Positions 54,377 through 62,569 of a stretch of DNA of 64,000 nt are shown piece by piece. How positions within the stretch are numbered: the first letter of the stretch is position 1; every line of letters starts with the position of its first letter. Source of the DNA: Acarospora socialis (taxonomy: Eukaryota > Ascomycota > Lecanoromycetes > Acarosporales > Acarosporaceae). The stretch spans positions 1,612,001-1,676,000 of the forward strand of contig JAMYGW020000008.1 in assembly GCA_025617375.2 (NCBI GenBank), given 5' to 3'. The notes beneath the pieces are model-generated. The model had not been told where the DNA came from. It made no database searches and saw only the letters and a list, made by a program, of their open reading frames with translations. The translations under genes were made by a program, and so were the position numbers.

Positions 54377-57300
54377 CTACCAGCGCCTCGAATAAACCGA
54401 GTCTTCCCTCGACGTATTCTTCACCTTATGCCTCTCCATAACAGGCGGACTAGCCCTCTTGCCTATCCTCTCCCGCTCCTCTACCCCTCTAACCCCACCA
54501 CTCATCTGCCCACCCAGAACCCTCGTCCTCTCACCCAATCCCAAGCCGACATCACCGTGATGAGCATGCTCCGCATCCCGCCTGAAAAGACCCATGATAT
54601 CTTTCATGCTCAACTTACTCACCGCCTTGCCCTCGACCGTGGCGTTGGCCAGTTCGCGTTTCTTGTCCTGGAGCTCGATGATGCGCTCTTCGACGGTGTC
54701 TTTGACGGTAAGCTTGTAGACGACCACGTCGACTGTCTGATTCAGGCGATGGACGCGATCGATGGCTTGTTCTTCGACGAACTGGGCATGATTTAATTTG
54801 GCGCCTTTTCGGTTGACTTAATCGAGACACTTACGGGATTCCAAAAGGGTTCCATAATCACAACCCTACTCGCCGCGGTCAAGTTCAAGCCTAATGAACC
54901 GCATTTCAGACTACAGAGCAGAATCCGCGTCCTCTTCTCGTTACGTAATCGGTTCAAACTTGCTTCCCGTGCGTCGTTCCTCATGCTGCCGTCGTACCGC
55001 GTGAAGACGAACCCATCCCGTTTGAGAAAGGGCTCGATCAGATCCAGCATGGAGGTGAACTGCGAGAAGACGATGAACTTCTGCTTCGCTGACTCACGGT
55101 GCAAGATCTTGAGGAGATGTCGGATCTTGGTAGACACCGCTATGGGGATTTTTGTTTGGCCTTCCGTGGAACTCTCAGCCTCGACTTCATCTTCCGTGTC
55201 ACTGTCCTCAGATTGGCTGTGTTCCTCGTCTGTTGAGTCAGGGTCGATGACTTTCTTTTTGAGCTCTTCGACACTTGGAAGATCGGACTCGTCACCGGTA
55301 TCGGAGTCTTCGGATTTCAGCCATTCGCCCCCTCCTTCCGCGTTCTCGTCATCACTTCCCCCGGCCACACCCAGATTGGACGCAAGACGTTCCCGCTCAG
55401 GAACGACCCAGTGTCCCTCACCCTCCTCCTCGTCATCACTGTCTGCAACGATCCGCCGGTTCTTCAACGCTCTAGGTTTCTTATCGCCACGCCTGGATTC
55501 GGTTTTCGAAGTGCGCGAGCTGCGAGGCTTATGCTTCTTCTCCTTCTTCTCCTTGTTCTTTCGTTTCACAAACCCAGGTAAGTCTTCTTCACATTCGGCG
55601 CACCTCAGGGCACCTGATGCAACCTCTTCGGATGTCAACTTGATCTGGCAGACATCGCACTTCTTCGTCTCCATACTGAGCCCACCAAGCATATCAGCCA
55701 TATCATCCAGTTCCTTATCTGTGGTCTTGGATTTTCTTGGCGTCTGACCTACTGCTCCACTCCCTGTAGTGAGCGCATCACGGTCTTTTGCCACGTTACG
55801 GCGTGTGAGTTCCGGATGGTTGCATGCCTGACGTAGACGAAGCAGAAGCACCAAAGCGCTTGCGTAACTGAGATTGTCGTCTTCCATCATCTGTTCCAGG
55901 CTTTTGTCCGTGCGGTCTTCAAGGCGTTTGTAGAAACGACGCTCTTCTGCCGAGAACTCGGCAATGACTTCTTCAATCTTGCGCTCGGTAATCTTGAAGG
56001 TGTTGGTCGCTCCGTGTACTGTTGGCGCTTTCCCGCCAGGGTTGAGTGCCCCTTCTTGTTTTAGGACATCTTTTGTTCGGCGCTTCATGAGGGCCTTCAG
56101 ATAGAACTGCAATCTCTGAATAGCCAGACCACCAAGTCCGCTGCTCATCGGTCTCGTGATCTGGTCTCTCCAGACAGATAGGTCGTCGTAGGGCTTAACT
56201 CTGAGAAACTTGATCAAGCTCTGAAGCTCATCAAGGTTGTTCTGCATCGGCGTGCCCGTCAAACACCATCTATATTCCGCCCTTAGAGCATAGCAGGCTT
56301 GCGTTGCTTTTGCGTTTCGGTTCTTGATGCTATGTGCTTCATCGAGTATCACACGGTACCAGTGGAGGCCAAAGCACCCAACTTTCAGGCCATCGTCATG
56401 ATCAGAAGAGCTTCCATGCTCCGAAACAAGGATCTGATACGTGGTGATAACGACATCGTATTTCTTCAGGTCCTGAAAACGTTTCGTCCGCTGCGGGCCA
56501 TGGTGAATGCACACCCGAAGCTTGTGTGAATCCGACACCCGATTATTGATTTCCGCTTCCCATTGCTTTATTAGAGCTAAAGGAGCTACGACCAGAGTGC
56601 CTTTGTCCAGATTGCGTGGTAGCTCCCGCCGGTTGTCAACAGTCGATGGCAAATTCGACGACGGCTTTGGGTTTTTGAGAAGCAGCGCAATAGATTGTAT
56701 CGTTTTCCCAAGCCCCATGTCGTCCGCTAAGATGCCACCGTATGGAAGAATTCCGTTTTTCTTCCTGACTCCCACCTCTTTATCCACCATCCAGCTGACA
56801 CCTTCCACCTGATGAGGCAGAAGCTTAACATTCAACCCTTCAACCGTACCGTCATCCTCCTCTTCCTCCTCCTCCTCCTCCTCCTCCTCTTCTTCTTCAT
56901 TCTCATCAGCTTTAACTCCGCTGGCCTTGTCTCCGCCCTTAACACTCAGACCTTTCAGTTTATTCAGAACTTCGTCGGTGTTGACTTGTAGCTTCTTCTT
57001 CCGACCCCTGGTCCGAGGCTTATCCTCTTCGTCCTCGAAGGCTCCTTCAAGCAAAGCTTTGATATTCTCGTTCGCCTTTTCGGTATCGATATACGTGTAC
57101 GGGTCACTCGTACTGAATGCATCATCATAGTGAAGTGCTCTGCCTAAGTTGCTAGTGAGGTCGATGAAATTGCTTATGACGCTTGAGCCCTGTGATGAGA
57201 AAGTCGGAGCCTTGGAAGGCTTGGTCGTCCAGCTGGGATGGTTGGCGGGTTTTGGTATCTCTACAACATCATGGTCGATGACTCGATTATACTTGGTTTC

Positions 57301-58089
57301 GAAGAATGACGGCTGCTGGGGTCGTGACGGATCTCGCAACGGTTTCAAAGGACCGTTGGCCTGCGCCAAGGTATCACCGCTCGAGCGGCCGGTAGGCCTA
57401 TGATGCTCTGGTCGCGGGCGATTCGGCTTTGGCACGTTGAACAGACTGGTATTTGAATGGAGTGGGTTTTGTAGTGCGCTGGGTTTCCCAAACTCCGGCT
57501 GCTGCACCCTTTCTGTAGATTGCTGGTTGATTTTGTGGGGTGTCAACGGGACCCTGGGCGGCTCCCGTTCTCGGACCATCCTGCTGACCAAGTCCGACGT
57601 CGTAGACCTTTGTGCAAATGCAGACGAACGCTCTGGAGACAACGTGTTCGAGTCGGCGCTTAGAAACGAAGGTGAAGAGAAGGTGAACTCTGGTTGTTTC
57701 GGAGGGCTCGAGTCTCGAAACTCGACAAGTAGCGAAGGAGTAACACCAGATTCCTCAGGACGCTCGCGTTGAGGAGGCGGCGTGAACGAAAATAGCGAAC
57801 TCGAGTCGCCAACCGGCGAATTATGGCTACTACTATCAAACTCCGAGCTAGACACCGGCGACGGTGGCTCTTCCACGGGAAACTGCTGCAACCCGCTCAA
57901 CCTCGCCCTAAAAGACCTCACCCATTCCTCGTTGACCTCGACCGGCTCCAAACGCGGACTCTGCGTCTCGAAGATCTCCAGTTGCGGTGAGCGCGCTTCG
58001 GTTGCGGTCTTGAACTGAGGCGGGTTCGCGGAGCTCAAGGTGTTATGCGGCCGATGCGACGTACCGCGCTGACGTTGTCTGTTCTTCAT
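54377..58089 (-). CDS. SNF2-family DNA-dependent ATPase/helicase
   Basis: Chromatin- or DNA-repair ATPase of superfamily 2, nuclear. Exons 54835-58089 and 54377-54781 give 1219 aa. The frame opens further upstream with GTG; the ATG at 58089-58087 (MKNRQRQRGTSHRP) is chosen. The N-terminus is disordered, with a poly-Glu run of about 15 near residue 410. ATPase motifs: VKLLPHQVEGVSWMV (Q motif), ILADDMGLGKTIQSIALLL (Walker A), VILDEAHSIKN (DEAH, Walker B) and CLTGTPMQNNLDEL. After a Cys pair insert (CDVCQIKL..CAEC), the helicase C half has KFIVFSQFTSMLD, GSLGLNLTAASRVVIMEPFW and, across the splice, AIDRVHRLNQT. The Cys insert suggests the Rad5/Rad16/ULS1 side; exact orthology is open. Confidence 0.92.
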
Positions 58090-58568
58090 TATTGTTCTCG
58101 TCAGCGGCACCCACTCACAGACTTGACGATATCAGGAGAGGTACGGGAGAGCAGCTTACAGTATGTACTCTTGTACGGGGGCTGGTGTCTTTGGGCGGTT
58201 TACGAACACGCCGTCTGTTCGCTGGACCAGTTGGGGATCGCGTCGGTGTTTGCCGGCCGACGGCTGATGGCGTTGCGGGGCAACCAGAGTGACTTCCCAG
58301 CCCTATGGATCTTGACCTACATGGACATTGGAGATAGGTAATTGCTGGCCGCTCTCAGGCAATACGAGTATGGGAGGTTAAAGTCGTTTACTAAAATCAT
58401 CTATACACCACAGAAGCGTATTTCAGATCAAATGCTCAAACGTACATACATAGTATCTTCTCAGCCATCGGCCCTTATGGTTCCCTCCAGCTGAACGGAG
58501 TCCTCCTCCTAGTGCAAACCTGTACCGTTTCCGTTCCCAGACACCGCACCCATGCATACACAAAGCCA
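58090..58568. other. Intergenic; possible small ORF on plus strand
   Basis: About 0.5 kb between the SNF2 start and the sirtuin stop. A plus-strand frame (58045-58341, 98 codons, ATG start) overlaps the SNF2 first codons in antisense. Its second half has good coding-like composition (LLYGGWCLWAVYEHAVC, then DFPALWILTYMDIGDR) but no domain. I cannot decide whether it is a gene. Confidence 0.25.
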
Positions 58569-59639
58569 TCACCTCCCCCCCTCCCCAACCTCTCCCACAA
58601 CCGCCTTCAAAATCGCCGGCACCACAACCCCGGCATCGCCCTCAAAGAACCAATCCCCCTGCATCAACCCCACCCCGGAACTGCGATCGACATTCACGAC
58701 GGCCACCCTCGCGCCCTTCTCCCTCGCCCGATCCACATAGCCCGCGGCCGGATACACCATCGCGCTCGTGCCAATTACCAGCATCAAATCGATCCTCGGC
58801 GCGGCCTTGATAAACTCATTGACCGCGCCAATCGTATCCGAGGGCAGCATCTCGCCGAACCAGACGACGCCGGGACGTAGGAGACCCGTCTTGCATTTCG
58901 GGCAGTGCGGGAGGTCCTCGGTCCGTATTTCGGGCATCGGGATTGCCGCGTCGGAGATGTCGAGTTCCCCTCCCGCCGAGGCCGCTCCGTTCGCGTTGGA
59001 GTGCTGCATAGCGCTGTAGAGGGAGTCGGCGGCCTCTGCGCCGGTGCGGTCGGTTTCTGAGGGCGTGGGCTGGGGGCCCGCGGTGGGGATGGCGAGGGCG
59101 GGCACGATGGGGTCCGTGAAGTTGTCCTTTTCCGCGTAATCGCAGTAGAATGCCGTGCAACGCACGTCGAACAGGTTGCCGTGGAGGAGGTGGAGTTTGT
59201 CTTCTGGGTGGTTGGCCCGTTGTGATAGCCCTGACCAAAACCCATATCAGCATCCATGAGACGTCCTAGTTTCGCCTCCAAGACTGGAAGGTATCTTACC
59301 GTCGACGTTCTGGCTCAAGGTCAAGAACCCCTCTTTCCTCCTCGCCAGTTCCGCCAGCGCGTAGTGAGCGCGATTCGGCTGCGCCTGCAGCGCCATGTGT
59401 CGCCTGTAGCTGTAAAACTGCCATACCAGCGCTGGGTTGGCGTCGAAGGCGTCCGGCGTGGCCAGCGTCGTGGCCTCATGGCTTCTCCATAGGCCGCCTG
59501 CGCCGCGGAATGTGGGGAGGCCGGAAGAGGCGGAGAGACCGGCGCCGAGGAGGGCGAGGATGTGTTTGGAGGATTGGAGATGTGCAGTGAAAGACTCGAG
59601 GTCGGACGGGGAGGTCTGAGGTGGGGCGGATGACGCCAT
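58569..59639 (-). CDS. Sirtuin, SIRT5-like class III NAD-dependent deacylase
   Basis: NAD-dependent protein deacylase. Exons 59300-59639 and 58569-59230 give 333 aa; start at the ATG at 59639 (MASSAPPQ) because the upstream extension is unlike the family. Rossmann part: LALLGAGLSASSGLPTFRGAGG. Catalytic core: SQNVDG-LSQRA and the catalytic His in LHLLHGNLFD. Zinc site: RCTAFYC and HCPKCKTG. Then LRPGVVWFGEMLP and IGTSAMVYPAAGY. The helix after DAFDANPALVW reads FYSYRRHM: its Tyr-x-x-Arg matches the residues (Tyr102 and Arg105 of human SIRT5) that bind succinyl- or malonyl-lysine. I infer desuccinylase/demalonylase activity, probably mitochondrial or cytosolic. An insert of about 45 residues lies between the two zinc Cys pairs. 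Confidence 0.9.
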
Positions 59640-59950
59640 TCTGGCGGTTATGTTCAAGGACGCATATGCTGTCGGCTTGAGGCAGCCTTTATGTGATAGT
59701 ATATGTCTTGGGTATCTGTACCACATGTGCTGTGCCACCGAAAATGCTTGGTTCAGGTGAGTTATCCAATGACGACAATTGGGTCATGGTCAAGGCAGGA
59801 TCTCAAGGTGGTATATCAAGGCAACAGAGTCTTCGAGCGAAATCAAGAACAAATGGCACGTATGGACAAGTATTCACTTGATTACTCTCGTACCATGCAG
59901 CACTTTTATCACATTGGTACTGTATGTCAATGTTTATCTGGCGGTAGGCA

Positions 59951-60203
59951 GTAGAACTCAGTGCAAGCACTTGATTTAGTGTAGTATAAGTGTATTTATT
60001 CATGATTATGAACAGTTATACTAATGTTATACATTTATACTAATTTTATACAGTTATTTCACTCTTACTAATCAATTAAGTTGACTCATTTGAGTCATGA
60101 GTCAACTCAAGTCAGAAAAAAAGTGACTTGAGTTAACTCATAGAATGTTTGACTCATGAGTGGACTCAAGTCAGCATGACTCAAATTCTACACTGGTAGA
60201 ACT
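59951..60203. mobile_element. Non-autonomous hAT-like element (MITE) with 8-bp target duplication
   Basis: The element itself is 59959-60195 (237 bp). It is flanked by the perfect 8-bp direct repeat GTAGAACT at 59951-59958 and 60196-60203, and its ends are CAGTG...CACTG (5-bp perfect terminal inverted repeats, degenerate beyond). The right half has TGACTCA or TGAGTCA at 60082-60088, 60091-60097, 60098-60104, 60150-60156 and 60177-60183. It also has an imperfect 16-bp inverted repeat (about 60099-60140) around an A-rich loop. The left half is AT-rich with repeated ttatactaat. An 8-bp duplication and CAGTG ends are hallmarks of the hAT superfamily. There is no coding capacity. It sits between the sirtuin and the GIT1-like permease; the perfect duplication suggests a young insertion. 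Confidence 0.8.
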
Positions 60204-60262
60204 ACCTCAAGCTTACAGTTACGTGCGGCACCAGCCCTGCGACAGTGCGAGTACAGCAGCCA

Positions 60263-62569
60263 TCACCTCACTTCATGCATGATAGCAGGCGGTATGCCAT
60301 CCTCCGCCAGAGCCTTCAGATCCTCCTCCCCCATCTCCCCAACCCATCCATGACTCACCAGATAGGCACGGAACTTCTCGTCCTCTTTCGCCAGATCATC
60401 GCCTTTGAGCTCCGGCACAAAGAAGTATGTCACAAGCACTCCCGCAACGCCGCAGATGGCTGCGATGATGAAAGTCCAGCCTGATGATGCTGTTAGCCAT
60501 GCTCGAAAAGGGGACTGTAAAGCAGCTGGGACTTGCGTTTTCCAAGGTTGGTCTGAATAGGAGTAAAAACTTCGGTTCCGATGGCGGCGCCGGTCTTGCC
60601 AATGGCTGCAGATATCCCGTAGCTGAATTTATTGGTCAGCAAGATAGAGGAGCCAGGACCTTGGAGCTTGCGCATGTTACCAAGTCCCTCGAACAGCTGT
60701 CGCATAACTCTCTGAGGAGATCAAGCCCAACATGTCGCTGGCCCAACGCGTCAGTTGTTTTGTGCCGCTACCCAATAGACACACGAGGTCAAGCATACCC
60801 AGGACCCAAGTTTCCGAAAGACTACGTGCAGTGTCAATATCTCTAGTCTGATAGGAACTGCCTTAAGAGTTTAACGTACCTGCATCAGACCGTAGAAGAT
60901 GACGAACAATGGTATACTAGATCAATTCAGTACCGCTCCCCAGTAAATACAGCATGAGCATACATTGTCGTTATCCGATCATATGCACAACCGATGATGA
61001 GCCCGAAAATCACTTCGAACCTATCAGCCAGCCATCATAAATCGTTGATATGGGAAATCGGTTACTCACAGTAACCGCTGAAACCCAACATCATAGTATT
61101 CTTGCGGCCTAGCCTATCGCACAGCAAAGCCCCAACAAACACGCCCGGTAAGGCAATGCTACCTAGAAGAAGTTGATACTCAGCCGTCTTCCTGAGATCC
61201 CCGTCCGGGACCACAGTCGAAATGATCCGGCCGGAAAAGACACCGTTAGGGAATGTCACCTGCCACGGTCAGCATATCCACCTCATTGTGCGAGTTATTG
61301 AGCGCCGTACAAAATCGTAAATGAACCAAGCCCCACAAGTCCCAATCAACGCCTTCCAGTAATACCTCAGTACTAACATATATGGAACCCTTCTCTTGAT
61401 CGCGCCGCGACGGTAAAGCTTCGAGTTCAGCATGCGGATCCGGAAGTAAAAGACCGTCAATGGAAATATGCACCCAATACCAAAGCAAACCCGCCAGATG
61501 GTAGAAAGATGATTCGTCGATGCAGCCGAGAGAACGATAAGAAAGATGATGACGGCAAGAGGCCCTCCGAAGGATAGGGGGAAATTGGTAACCATGATGA
61601 AAATTGGACCACGGCGTTTCAAGGTGTGTTCGTTTGCAGCCTCGGAAGCTGACGTCGAGGATGCCGGATATTCTCCTGTAGGGTGTCAGAGCATTGTTGT
61701 CTGAGAGTGTATGAGGCATATCAATGAAACATACCTCCAGCCCCGAATCCCACAATGCCTCTCGCTACCTGATTCGGCGTCAGTACTACCTAGACACCTA
61801 GTGGCTCCTCGAGGCCAATGTGCATACCGTCATCATCCAGAACATGCCATTGATTGTAGGACCATTCGAGGCTGTTACGCCGAGACACATCAGTCCGCAA
61901 TCTTGCACTGCATTTGCGAAATCCTAGCCCATCAACCTTACCGGTAGCCAAGATCCCTCCAATAACAATCATAGCCGTCGTAGTGATGATAGCGAACTTT
62001 CTCCCCAGATAGTCACACGTAAGACTGCGCAAACACCATCAGCTCATTGACCACAACATTCAAACCTCCCGACCATACCCGATAACGACCTGACCAATGA
62101 TCTCCCCAACAAGTAGCGCATTCGAGACCCTAGTACTGACAGCCGCCGTGTATTCCTTCGGATACTCTTTTCTGAGCAGCACATTGGTCATAGTCCTAGA
62201 GGGCACAACATCAGCGCCGCTCCTCGGCCTTTGGACACCGTTCTCAAGCCACCAGAGCCATAAGTCGCACGTACATCAAATTGTTCTGATACCCGTCGCT
62301 GATCAACGCGAATCCGGAGCAGAACTACGCCGGCGCCAAAAAAGCCCCAGTCAGCCATTTCTTCCTTGTCTTGCCTCTTTCGCCTCTCCGCCAAGAAGAA
62401 CGAGGACGCAATCAAGCAGGATCTAAATGCGCCAACGCACGATAGTGAACACGTCCGACAAACTCTGCTTGCGAGACGAAACTTCCGCCGACGGCGCGGC
62501 CGGATCGTCCAGCACGGCGACAGTCTGCACGTCTTTCATGTCGTCGCTGATGCGCTTCTCGTCCGCCAT
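60263..62569 (-). CDS. MFS permease of the GIT1/phosphate-symporter type
   Basis: Plasma-membrane symporter resembling yeast Git1 (glycerophosphoinositol and glycerophosphocholine) and PHS-family transporters. About 14 short exons, start at the ATG at 62569 (MADEKRISDDMKDVQTV). Diagnostic stretches in order: SGFALISDGYQNNLM (helix 1), DYLGRKFAIITTTAMIVIGG (motif A), GIVGFGAGGEYPASSTSASE (helix 4), then a large loop and helices through RLGRKNTMMLGFSGY, FVIFYGLMQ-SFGNLGPG and YGISAAIGKTGAAIGTEVF, and a C-terminal tail ending IMHEVR. Intron 13 (60481-60536) is GC-AG, and the exon starting YLIFGLIIG needs an AAG acceptor. The substrate is inferred from family likeness only. Confidence 0.85.

Follow-up and report, generated by a model that had tools for sequence, protein, structure and literature searches.

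A Single-Copy hAT-like Insertion Upstream of a Sirtuin Gene in Acarospora socialis Shares the CpC/CpG-Poor Signature of the Host's Dead Transposons

Results

Structure and Limits of the Insertion

We analyzed a stretch of 64,000 nucleotides of the Acarospora socialis genome (hereafter, the window), in which a short insertion is located in the gap that separates a sirtuin gene from a permease gene. The features of the locus are as follows, with positions given as those of the window.

58569-59639, minus strand: sirtuin (SIR2 family) gene; two exons were seen, and both match SIR2
59948-60161, no strand: longest run free of CG, CC and GG in the window, 215 bp (the next longest is 64 bp)
59951-59958, no strand: left copy of the target-site duplication, GTAGAACT, read from the sequence
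59959-60195, plus strand: 237-bp hAT-like non-autonomous insertion; 30.8% G+C, no CpG, one CpC/GpG
59959-59978, plus strand: left terminal inverted repeat, CAGTG and then imperfect, from end-to-end comparison
60082-60183, no strand: five TGASTCA heptamers, from a motif search
60098-60114, plus strand: subterminal repeat unit 1, TGAGTCAACTCAAGTCA, from a pattern search
60124-60140, minus strand: subterminal repeat unit 2 (inverted), TGAGTTAACTCAAGTCA, from a pattern search
60157-60173, plus strand: subterminal repeat unit 3, TGAGTGGACTCAAGTCA, from a pattern search
60177-60195, minus strand: right terminal inverted repeat, from end-to-end comparison
60196-60203, no strand: right copy of the target-site duplication, GTAGAACT, read from the sequence
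60263-61622, minus strand: 3' part of a sugar-transporter-like permease gene (Pfam score 20.9 bits, just under the cut-off of 22.3)

Both neighboring genes are encoded on the minus strand, and the element is therefore located 5' of the sirtuin gene and 3' of the permease gene, whose stop codon (60263-60265) is 59 bp from the right copy of the duplication. A SNF2 helicase gene is also present in the window, at 54793-58110. The best named match to its product comes from a MAG of Pleopsidium flavum (75% identity, 83% of the query covered) and ranks ninth, behind eight unnamed proteins with 68-85%, which makes kinship of the host with Acarosporales lichen fungi likely. The first bases of the element are CAGTG and the last are CACTG, and the 8-bp duplication GTAGAACT that flanks it is perfect. 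Terminal inverted repeats of hAT transposons are of the CAGTG type, with A at position 2 and G at position 5. Here, the repeats are imperfect past these 5 bp; the two ends agree at 12 of 20 positions, CAGTG included, with one gap, and four or five of the seven substitutions between them are transitions, depending on where the gap is placed. The G+C content of the element is 30.8% compared with 52.2% for the window, and no ORF of at least 30 amino acids was found wholly within it. Direct reading of the sequence confirmed the coordinates, the ends, the 8-bp duplication and the number of heptamers given by the first-pass annotation of this DNA.

The window contains 68 pairs of CAGTG and CACTG spaced 40-1500 bp apart. 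With a probability of 3.5e-5 for identity of two 8-mers, 0.0024 such pairs per window would be expected to have identical 8-bp flanks, and one was seen; none occurred in 100 random sequences generated with the window's first-order transition frequencies. In a looser test, which accepted any 5-bp inverted ends with identical 8-bp flanks at a spacing of 100-800 bp, the window gave two structures, and random sequences gave 0.58 on average. The weight of the evidence therefore rests on the hAT-type ends. Note that 8-bp duplications are not unique to hAT, so that the insertion might instead belong to another superfamily, such as Merlin, P or an atypical MULE. However, CAGTG ends combined with subterminal repeats fit hAT best, and the genome does contain a hAT repeat of which one copy shows what looks like an 8-bp duplication (see below); assignment to another superfamily seems to us quite improbable. 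When the duplication is compared with nTnnnnAn, the target preference given for Hermes in PMC10368747, T is present at position 2 and C instead of A at position 7, in what is a single site.

Heptamers and Subterminal Units at the Right End

Within the element, TGASTCA starts at 60082, 60091, 60098, 60150 and 60177, so that 5 of the window's 14 sites are found in 102 bp. The total of 14 is not above chance (shuffle mean, 10.75; 25 of 100 shuffles reach 14), and it is the clustering that stands out. The first-pass annotation had read five heptamers as likely transposase-binding motifs; the count holds, but the heptamers are not independent, being mostly parts of three longer units, two direct and one inverted. 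Specifically, they overlap or adjoin quasi-palindromic units of the form TGAGT-NN-ACTCAAGTCA. The quasi-palindrome TGAGTNNACTCAAGTCA, a pattern drawn from the element itself, was found at three sites in the window, all of them in the element, and 100 shuffles gave 0 on average. The three units, from which the unit was defined, agree at 15 of 17 positions, with centers that vary freely (CA, TA and GG in units 1, 2 and 3). All three are located in the right half of the element; the left half is A+T-rich and carries none. Perfect sites of ATGAGTNNACTCAAGTCA number exactly three in the whole genome, again all in the element. When up to two mismatches were allowed, the unit pattern was found at 36 places genome-wide, 3 in the element and 33 elsewhere, compared with 21 for the reversed control, and none of the three outside places that were read (L064-L066) is a copy of the element.

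TGASTCA is the Gcn4/AP-1 consensus, and the heptamers lie approximately 440-545 bp upstream of the likely start codon of the sirtuin at 59639. Amino-acid-starvation control of either neighbor had been envisaged; given that both are encoded on the minus strand, the sirtuin is the sole neighbor whose promoter could acquire a site from the element. A native array of bZIP sites (Gcn4/CpcA or AP-1-like) in the promoter of the sirtuin, flanked by repeats only through coincidence, would account for five consensus heptamers in 102 bp at this distance from the start codon. However, it would leave unexplained the 8-bp duplication together with the CAGTG/CACTG ends, for which 0.0024 were expected, as well as a CpC/CpG-free stretch that stops at the ends of the element, and what is repeated is the longer, variable-center unit TGAGTNNACTCAAGTCA. 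We regard such an array as highly improbable. That the heptamers match the AP-1/Gcn4 consensus is most likely a coincidence, and by analogy with known hAT elements, the right-end units probably served as binding sites for the BED domain of a transposase.

The right half of the element is also rich in hairpins, with a folding z of -4.5 for the element as single-stranded DNA, as might be expected of a structured non-coding RNA gene. This hairpin potential follows from the inverted orientation of the subterminal units, and a search against Rfam gave two matches far below the gathering scores (21.6 against 43 bits and 20.7 against 102 bits), so that an RNA gene is an extremely improbable reading of the locus.

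Copy Number in the Genome

The first-pass annotation had classified the element as a hAT-like MITE, for which copies with the same ends and different 8-bp flanks would be anticipated. In searches of the 31.1-Mb genome (38 contigs), however, the element was the only copy found. A DNA search with the 253 bp, duplications included, gave no locus but the element's own, and a search with the 237 bp at E values up to 10 gave only that locus, together with two weak self-matches of the element. Note that these DNA searches skip common words, and strongly diverged copies could escape them. Genome-wide pattern searches allowing up to three mismatches, with the right end as it stands or with the right and left ends made degenerate for C/T and G/A, found no further copy. 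A gapped pattern of the ends matched 21 places, two of which are the element's own ends, compared with 8 for the reversed control. At 18 of the other 19 places, no CACTG-like second end with a duplication was found within approximately 1.5 kb, a reach beyond which longer elements would be missed, and the remaining place (L050) is a poor candidate whose duplication and end each have one mismatch. Searching with a degenerate pattern for 19 bases of the end, at two mismatches or fewer, was non-discriminating (164 matches versus 101 in the control), and neither of the two matches that were read (L063 and L067) is a copy of the element. The right end (19 bases) was without an exact match in the viral collection. 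Accordingly, the element is short, non-coding and A+T-rich in the manner of a MITE (237 bp, 30.8% G+C, no ORF of at least 30 amino acids), but only one copy was found in the 31.1 Mb, and a MITE family, with its many near-identical copies, is not supported. The hAT-type insertion itself is upheld by the duplication, the ends, the subterminal repeats and the dinucleotide limits described below.

Search for a Mobilizing Transposase

An autonomous hAT with the same ends, which could have named the family, was not found in the genome. No intact hAT transposase was detected, as all 15 matches to PF05699 (dimer domain) carry in-frame stops, and the one repeat family with readable ends has different ends. 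This family, referred to here as the large hAT, accounts for 14 of the 15 matches. Its copy A (L039+L021+L036; G000:C5:146267-157609) is approximately 11.3 kb long, which we take to be unusually long for a hAT, and has 13 related loci. Internally repetitive sequence was seen near the left end of the large hAT. Copy A starts with TAAAGTAATCATC and ends with TGATCACTCTA, and its 8-bp flanks, TATTTGCT and CATTTGCT, agree at seven of eight bases, the lone difference being C/T; the flanks of copy E gave no match by eye, and the duplication was thus seen in one of the two copies checked at both ends. Because its ends differ, the large hAT was rejected as the mobilizer of the element. GAGTC-rich words at the large-hAT ends resemble the heptamers, a likeness that is probably a by-product of C-to-T change there.

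The remaining PF05699 match, L034 (G000:C1:500754-510666), is a second, diverged hAT-like remnant outside the large-hAT family, with which it shares no match of at least 400 bp; a single shared match of 398 bp at 69% suggests a possible distant relationship. The ends of L034 were indistinguishable from chance, and it was rejected as a mobilizer. The hAT RNase-H model PF14372 had no match anywhere, controls included, and is uninformative. For the BED model PF02892, three matches were obtained, two of them just over the cut-off, and one was read. The BED match at C5:954792, which is near a match to the end pattern, was rejected as a transposase, since its frame encodes a C2H2 zinc-finger protein. 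Because no intact transposase was found, the element is probably immobile now.

Dinucleotide Signature of the Element

The element contains no CpG, against 5.6 expected from its composition, and one CpC/GpG, against 11.2 expected, while CpA+TpG (39) and CpT+ApG (33) reach 1.55 and 1.31 times the expectation, respectively. None of 20,000 mononucleotide shuffles gave both the CpG and the CpC/GpG values together; absence of CpG alone was obtained in 0.13%. No other 237-bp stretch of the window is as poor in these dinucleotides, the element having 1 CpG/CpC/GpG versus 16 in the next-poorest separate stretch. On the left side, the last GG is at 59947-59948, two bases from the left duplication. The sole surviving GG within the element is at 60162-60163. 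On the right side, a GG at 60195-60196 spans the junction, and a CC at 60205-60206 is one base past the right duplication. The 110-bp flanks contain 10 (left, 59841-59950) and 19 (right, 60204-60313) CG/CC/GG, and the terminal inverted repeat and the target-site duplication are without CpC and CpG. The limits of the signature, which played no part in defining the insertion, coincide with those of the insertion within a few bases.

The Same Signature in the Host Genome

Long AT-rich stretches almost without CpG, CpC and GpG were observed at loci L021-L035 (contigs C1-C3, C5, C6, C8 and C17), and within L024 and L031 the purged sequence gives way to normal sequence. CpG was absent from all 11 AT-rich loci tabulated. 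Among the six long ones (~10 kb each), five (L021, L025, L029, L035 and L034) had 0-3 CpC/GpG and L022 had 46; in L034, not one CG, CC or GG occurs in 9913 bp. Four of the five short AT-rich loci had no CpC/GpG, and L045 had 10 in 3 kb. When 1238 distinct 250-bp tiles were sorted, 743 had 0-2 CG/CC/GG, 72 had 3-24 and 423 had at least 25, in a sample that is biased in that most loci were chosen for hAT matches. The purged tiles have 27.5% G+C and, per 250 bp, contain on average 37.8 CpA+TpG, 30.6 CpT+ApG and 0.12 CC+GG.

We compared the large-hAT copies with each other and found 7396 transitions versus 257 transversions (21 pairs, 7 of the 14 loci), meaning that C-to-T/G-to-A transitions dominate between repeat copies, as in RIP. 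L022, the least-purged long large-hAT locus tabulated, in which CpG is already absent, was used as the reference for six other loci. At CpC, T replaces C in 121 of the 132 comparisons (92%), which come from few sites, each compared six times; the corresponding counts are 1313 of 6416 for CpA (20%) and 1158 of 5462 for CpT (21%), so that CpC is the most changed context and the preference of RIP for CpA was not seen. Isolated C/T differences between copies occur 1618 times before A, 1170 times before T and 12 times before C; C/T differences at CpA and CpT as well count against a strict CpC/CpG rule. The peculiarity is that CpC and CpG run out while CpA and CpT vary but remain, a pattern that suggests a RIP-like process whose exhausted target would be CpC/CpG rather than CpA. 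Cytosine-methyltransferase domains are encoded at three loci (G000:C3:855595, C2:1420221 and C8:614409), which are candidates for DIM-2/RID-type enzymes; it is through RID/DIM-2 that RIP operates, during the sexual cycle.

Standard RIP indices call all 15 long hAT loci un-RIPped, with TpA/ApT of 0.56-0.73 and (CpA+TpG)/(ApC+GpT) of 1.56-1.79; the usual limits, as given in PMC2621366, are 0.89 and 1.03, respectively. The indices of the element, 1.0 and 1.11, are beyond the first limit only. RIPCAL takes CpC as one of four RIP contexts, with CpA the usual one, according to the same source (PMC2621366), and mutations in ascomycete rRNA pseudogenes are described as mainly in CpA context too (PMC5555474). 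A CpC/CpG-exhausting specificity was not found in titles and abstract openings of the papers listed in searches on RIP context and lichens.

Purged tiles without the element contain 0.49 TGASTCA per kb versus 0.16 in normal tiles, indicating that the purge does raise the number of heptamers. As a full account of the heptamers, an origin purely as purge by-products was rejected; the 60 other sampled loci never have more than three in 102 bp.

Discussion

We consider it likely that the 237-bp insertion is a non-autonomous hAT-like DNA transposon that arrived by cut-and-paste in the gap between the permease and sirtuin genes and bears the dinucleotide signature of the host's dead transposons, whether scarred or native in this respect. 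A hAT transposase would have bound the right-end units, cut at CAGTG and CACTG and pasted the element into the gap, and insertion there would have duplicated 8 bp of the target. Several points weigh against this explanation: with one copy, the family and the ends rest on one sequence; the inverted ends are poor past 5 bp; the duplication departs from the Hermes preference at position 7; no transposase with matching ends was found in the genome; and one GG survives in the element, compared with 0.12 CC+GG per 250 bp in purged tiles.

The signature could have arisen in two ways. If the element was scarred, it would once have been multi-copy, and its CpC and CpG would have been purged by the host's RIP-like C-to-T process, either ahead of its transposition or at the present site, at a time when a further copy was still there. 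Scarring is argued for because the CpA and CpT frequencies of the element match those of purged tiles and, weakly, because four or five of the seven end-versus-end substitutions are transitions. Alternatively, the element may be natively free of CpC and CpG, adapted to a host that destroys these dinucleotides, and the signature would then reflect immunity, not scarring. Random resolution of CpC/CpG would have scrambled the units, which are identical at 15 of 17 positions; the end regions of large-hAT copies, by contrast, show many C/T and G/A differences from copy to copy. The lack of CpC/CpG in the terminal inverted repeat and the duplication, and the short length of 237 bp, are consistent with native absence as well. 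On the other hand, no intact relatives were found in the genome to show that such elements multiplied, and transitions at four or five of the seven differing end positions are what a scarred element might show. Native absence is thus possible but unlikely. In a related reading, which we regard as distinctly unlikely, a RIP-like defence strips CpC/CpG and not CpA, and the element persisted through CpC/CpG-poor ends and binding sites as a mutation-proof transposon. Since the three units are near-identical, a purge is less certain for the element than for the large repeats. We favor scarring, in an element that already had CpC/CpG-poor binding units at the outset. In either case, the element has probably been subjected to, or has evaded, an unusual form of the mutation system that fungi direct against transposons.

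Ds of Ac and the derivatives of Hermes and Tol2, which are non-autonomous hAT elements or MITEs, have CAGTG-type ends, and the element resembles them in its 8-bp duplication and in being non-coding and A+T-rich. Unlike hAT MITEs, it is single-copy, without a found partner, has short imperfect inverted ends and is nearly free of CpC/CpG. Its asymmetric, partly palindromic subterminal repeats are similar to those of Hermes and Tol2, as described in PMC10368747. According to this source, the sites bound by the BED domain of Hermes are of the AAGT type, a pair of them forming a quasi-palindrome, and the domain contacts the left end only (PMC10368747); the units of the element are likewise quasi-palindromic, contain AAGT and are confined to one end, a likeness of motif only. 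Among fungi, the MATa element of Kluyveromyces lactis, which is cut by the domesticated Kat1, is a comparable non-autonomous hAT-like element with repeated subterminal hexamers (PMC4763223). In contrast to the element described here, its ends are GTATAC, its repeat is AATTCA/TGAATT and 385 bp separate the ends; it also has a known host function (PMC4763223).

The mutation process resembles RIP in C-to-T change on both strands, its occurrence in repeats, the abrupt shift to normal sequence and the cytosine-methyltransferase domains. It differs from RIP, which mostly targets CpA as outlined in PMC2621366, in that CpC and CpG are nearly gone here and CpA and CpT remain. RIP in Cladonia rangiformis is also compartmentalized, with sharply bordered AT-rich transposon blocks, and two families of short DNA transposons are mostly spared by it (PMC12542154). 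Most of these blocks have 10-20% G+C (PMC12542154), unlike the purged tiles with 27.5%. The main text of PMC12542154 does not contain the words CpG and CpA, and the comparison of sequence context is limited accordingly.

The anatomy of the element is ordinary; what it reveals, and shares, is an unusual pattern of mutation in the host genome. Transposon relics present as a single copy are difficult to establish as such, and here the duplication and the mutation signature agree on the limits within a few bases. If true, the CpC/CpG specificity would be a new one for a much-studied genome defence, nearly complete over long stretches, and related genomes could serve for an immediate check of it.
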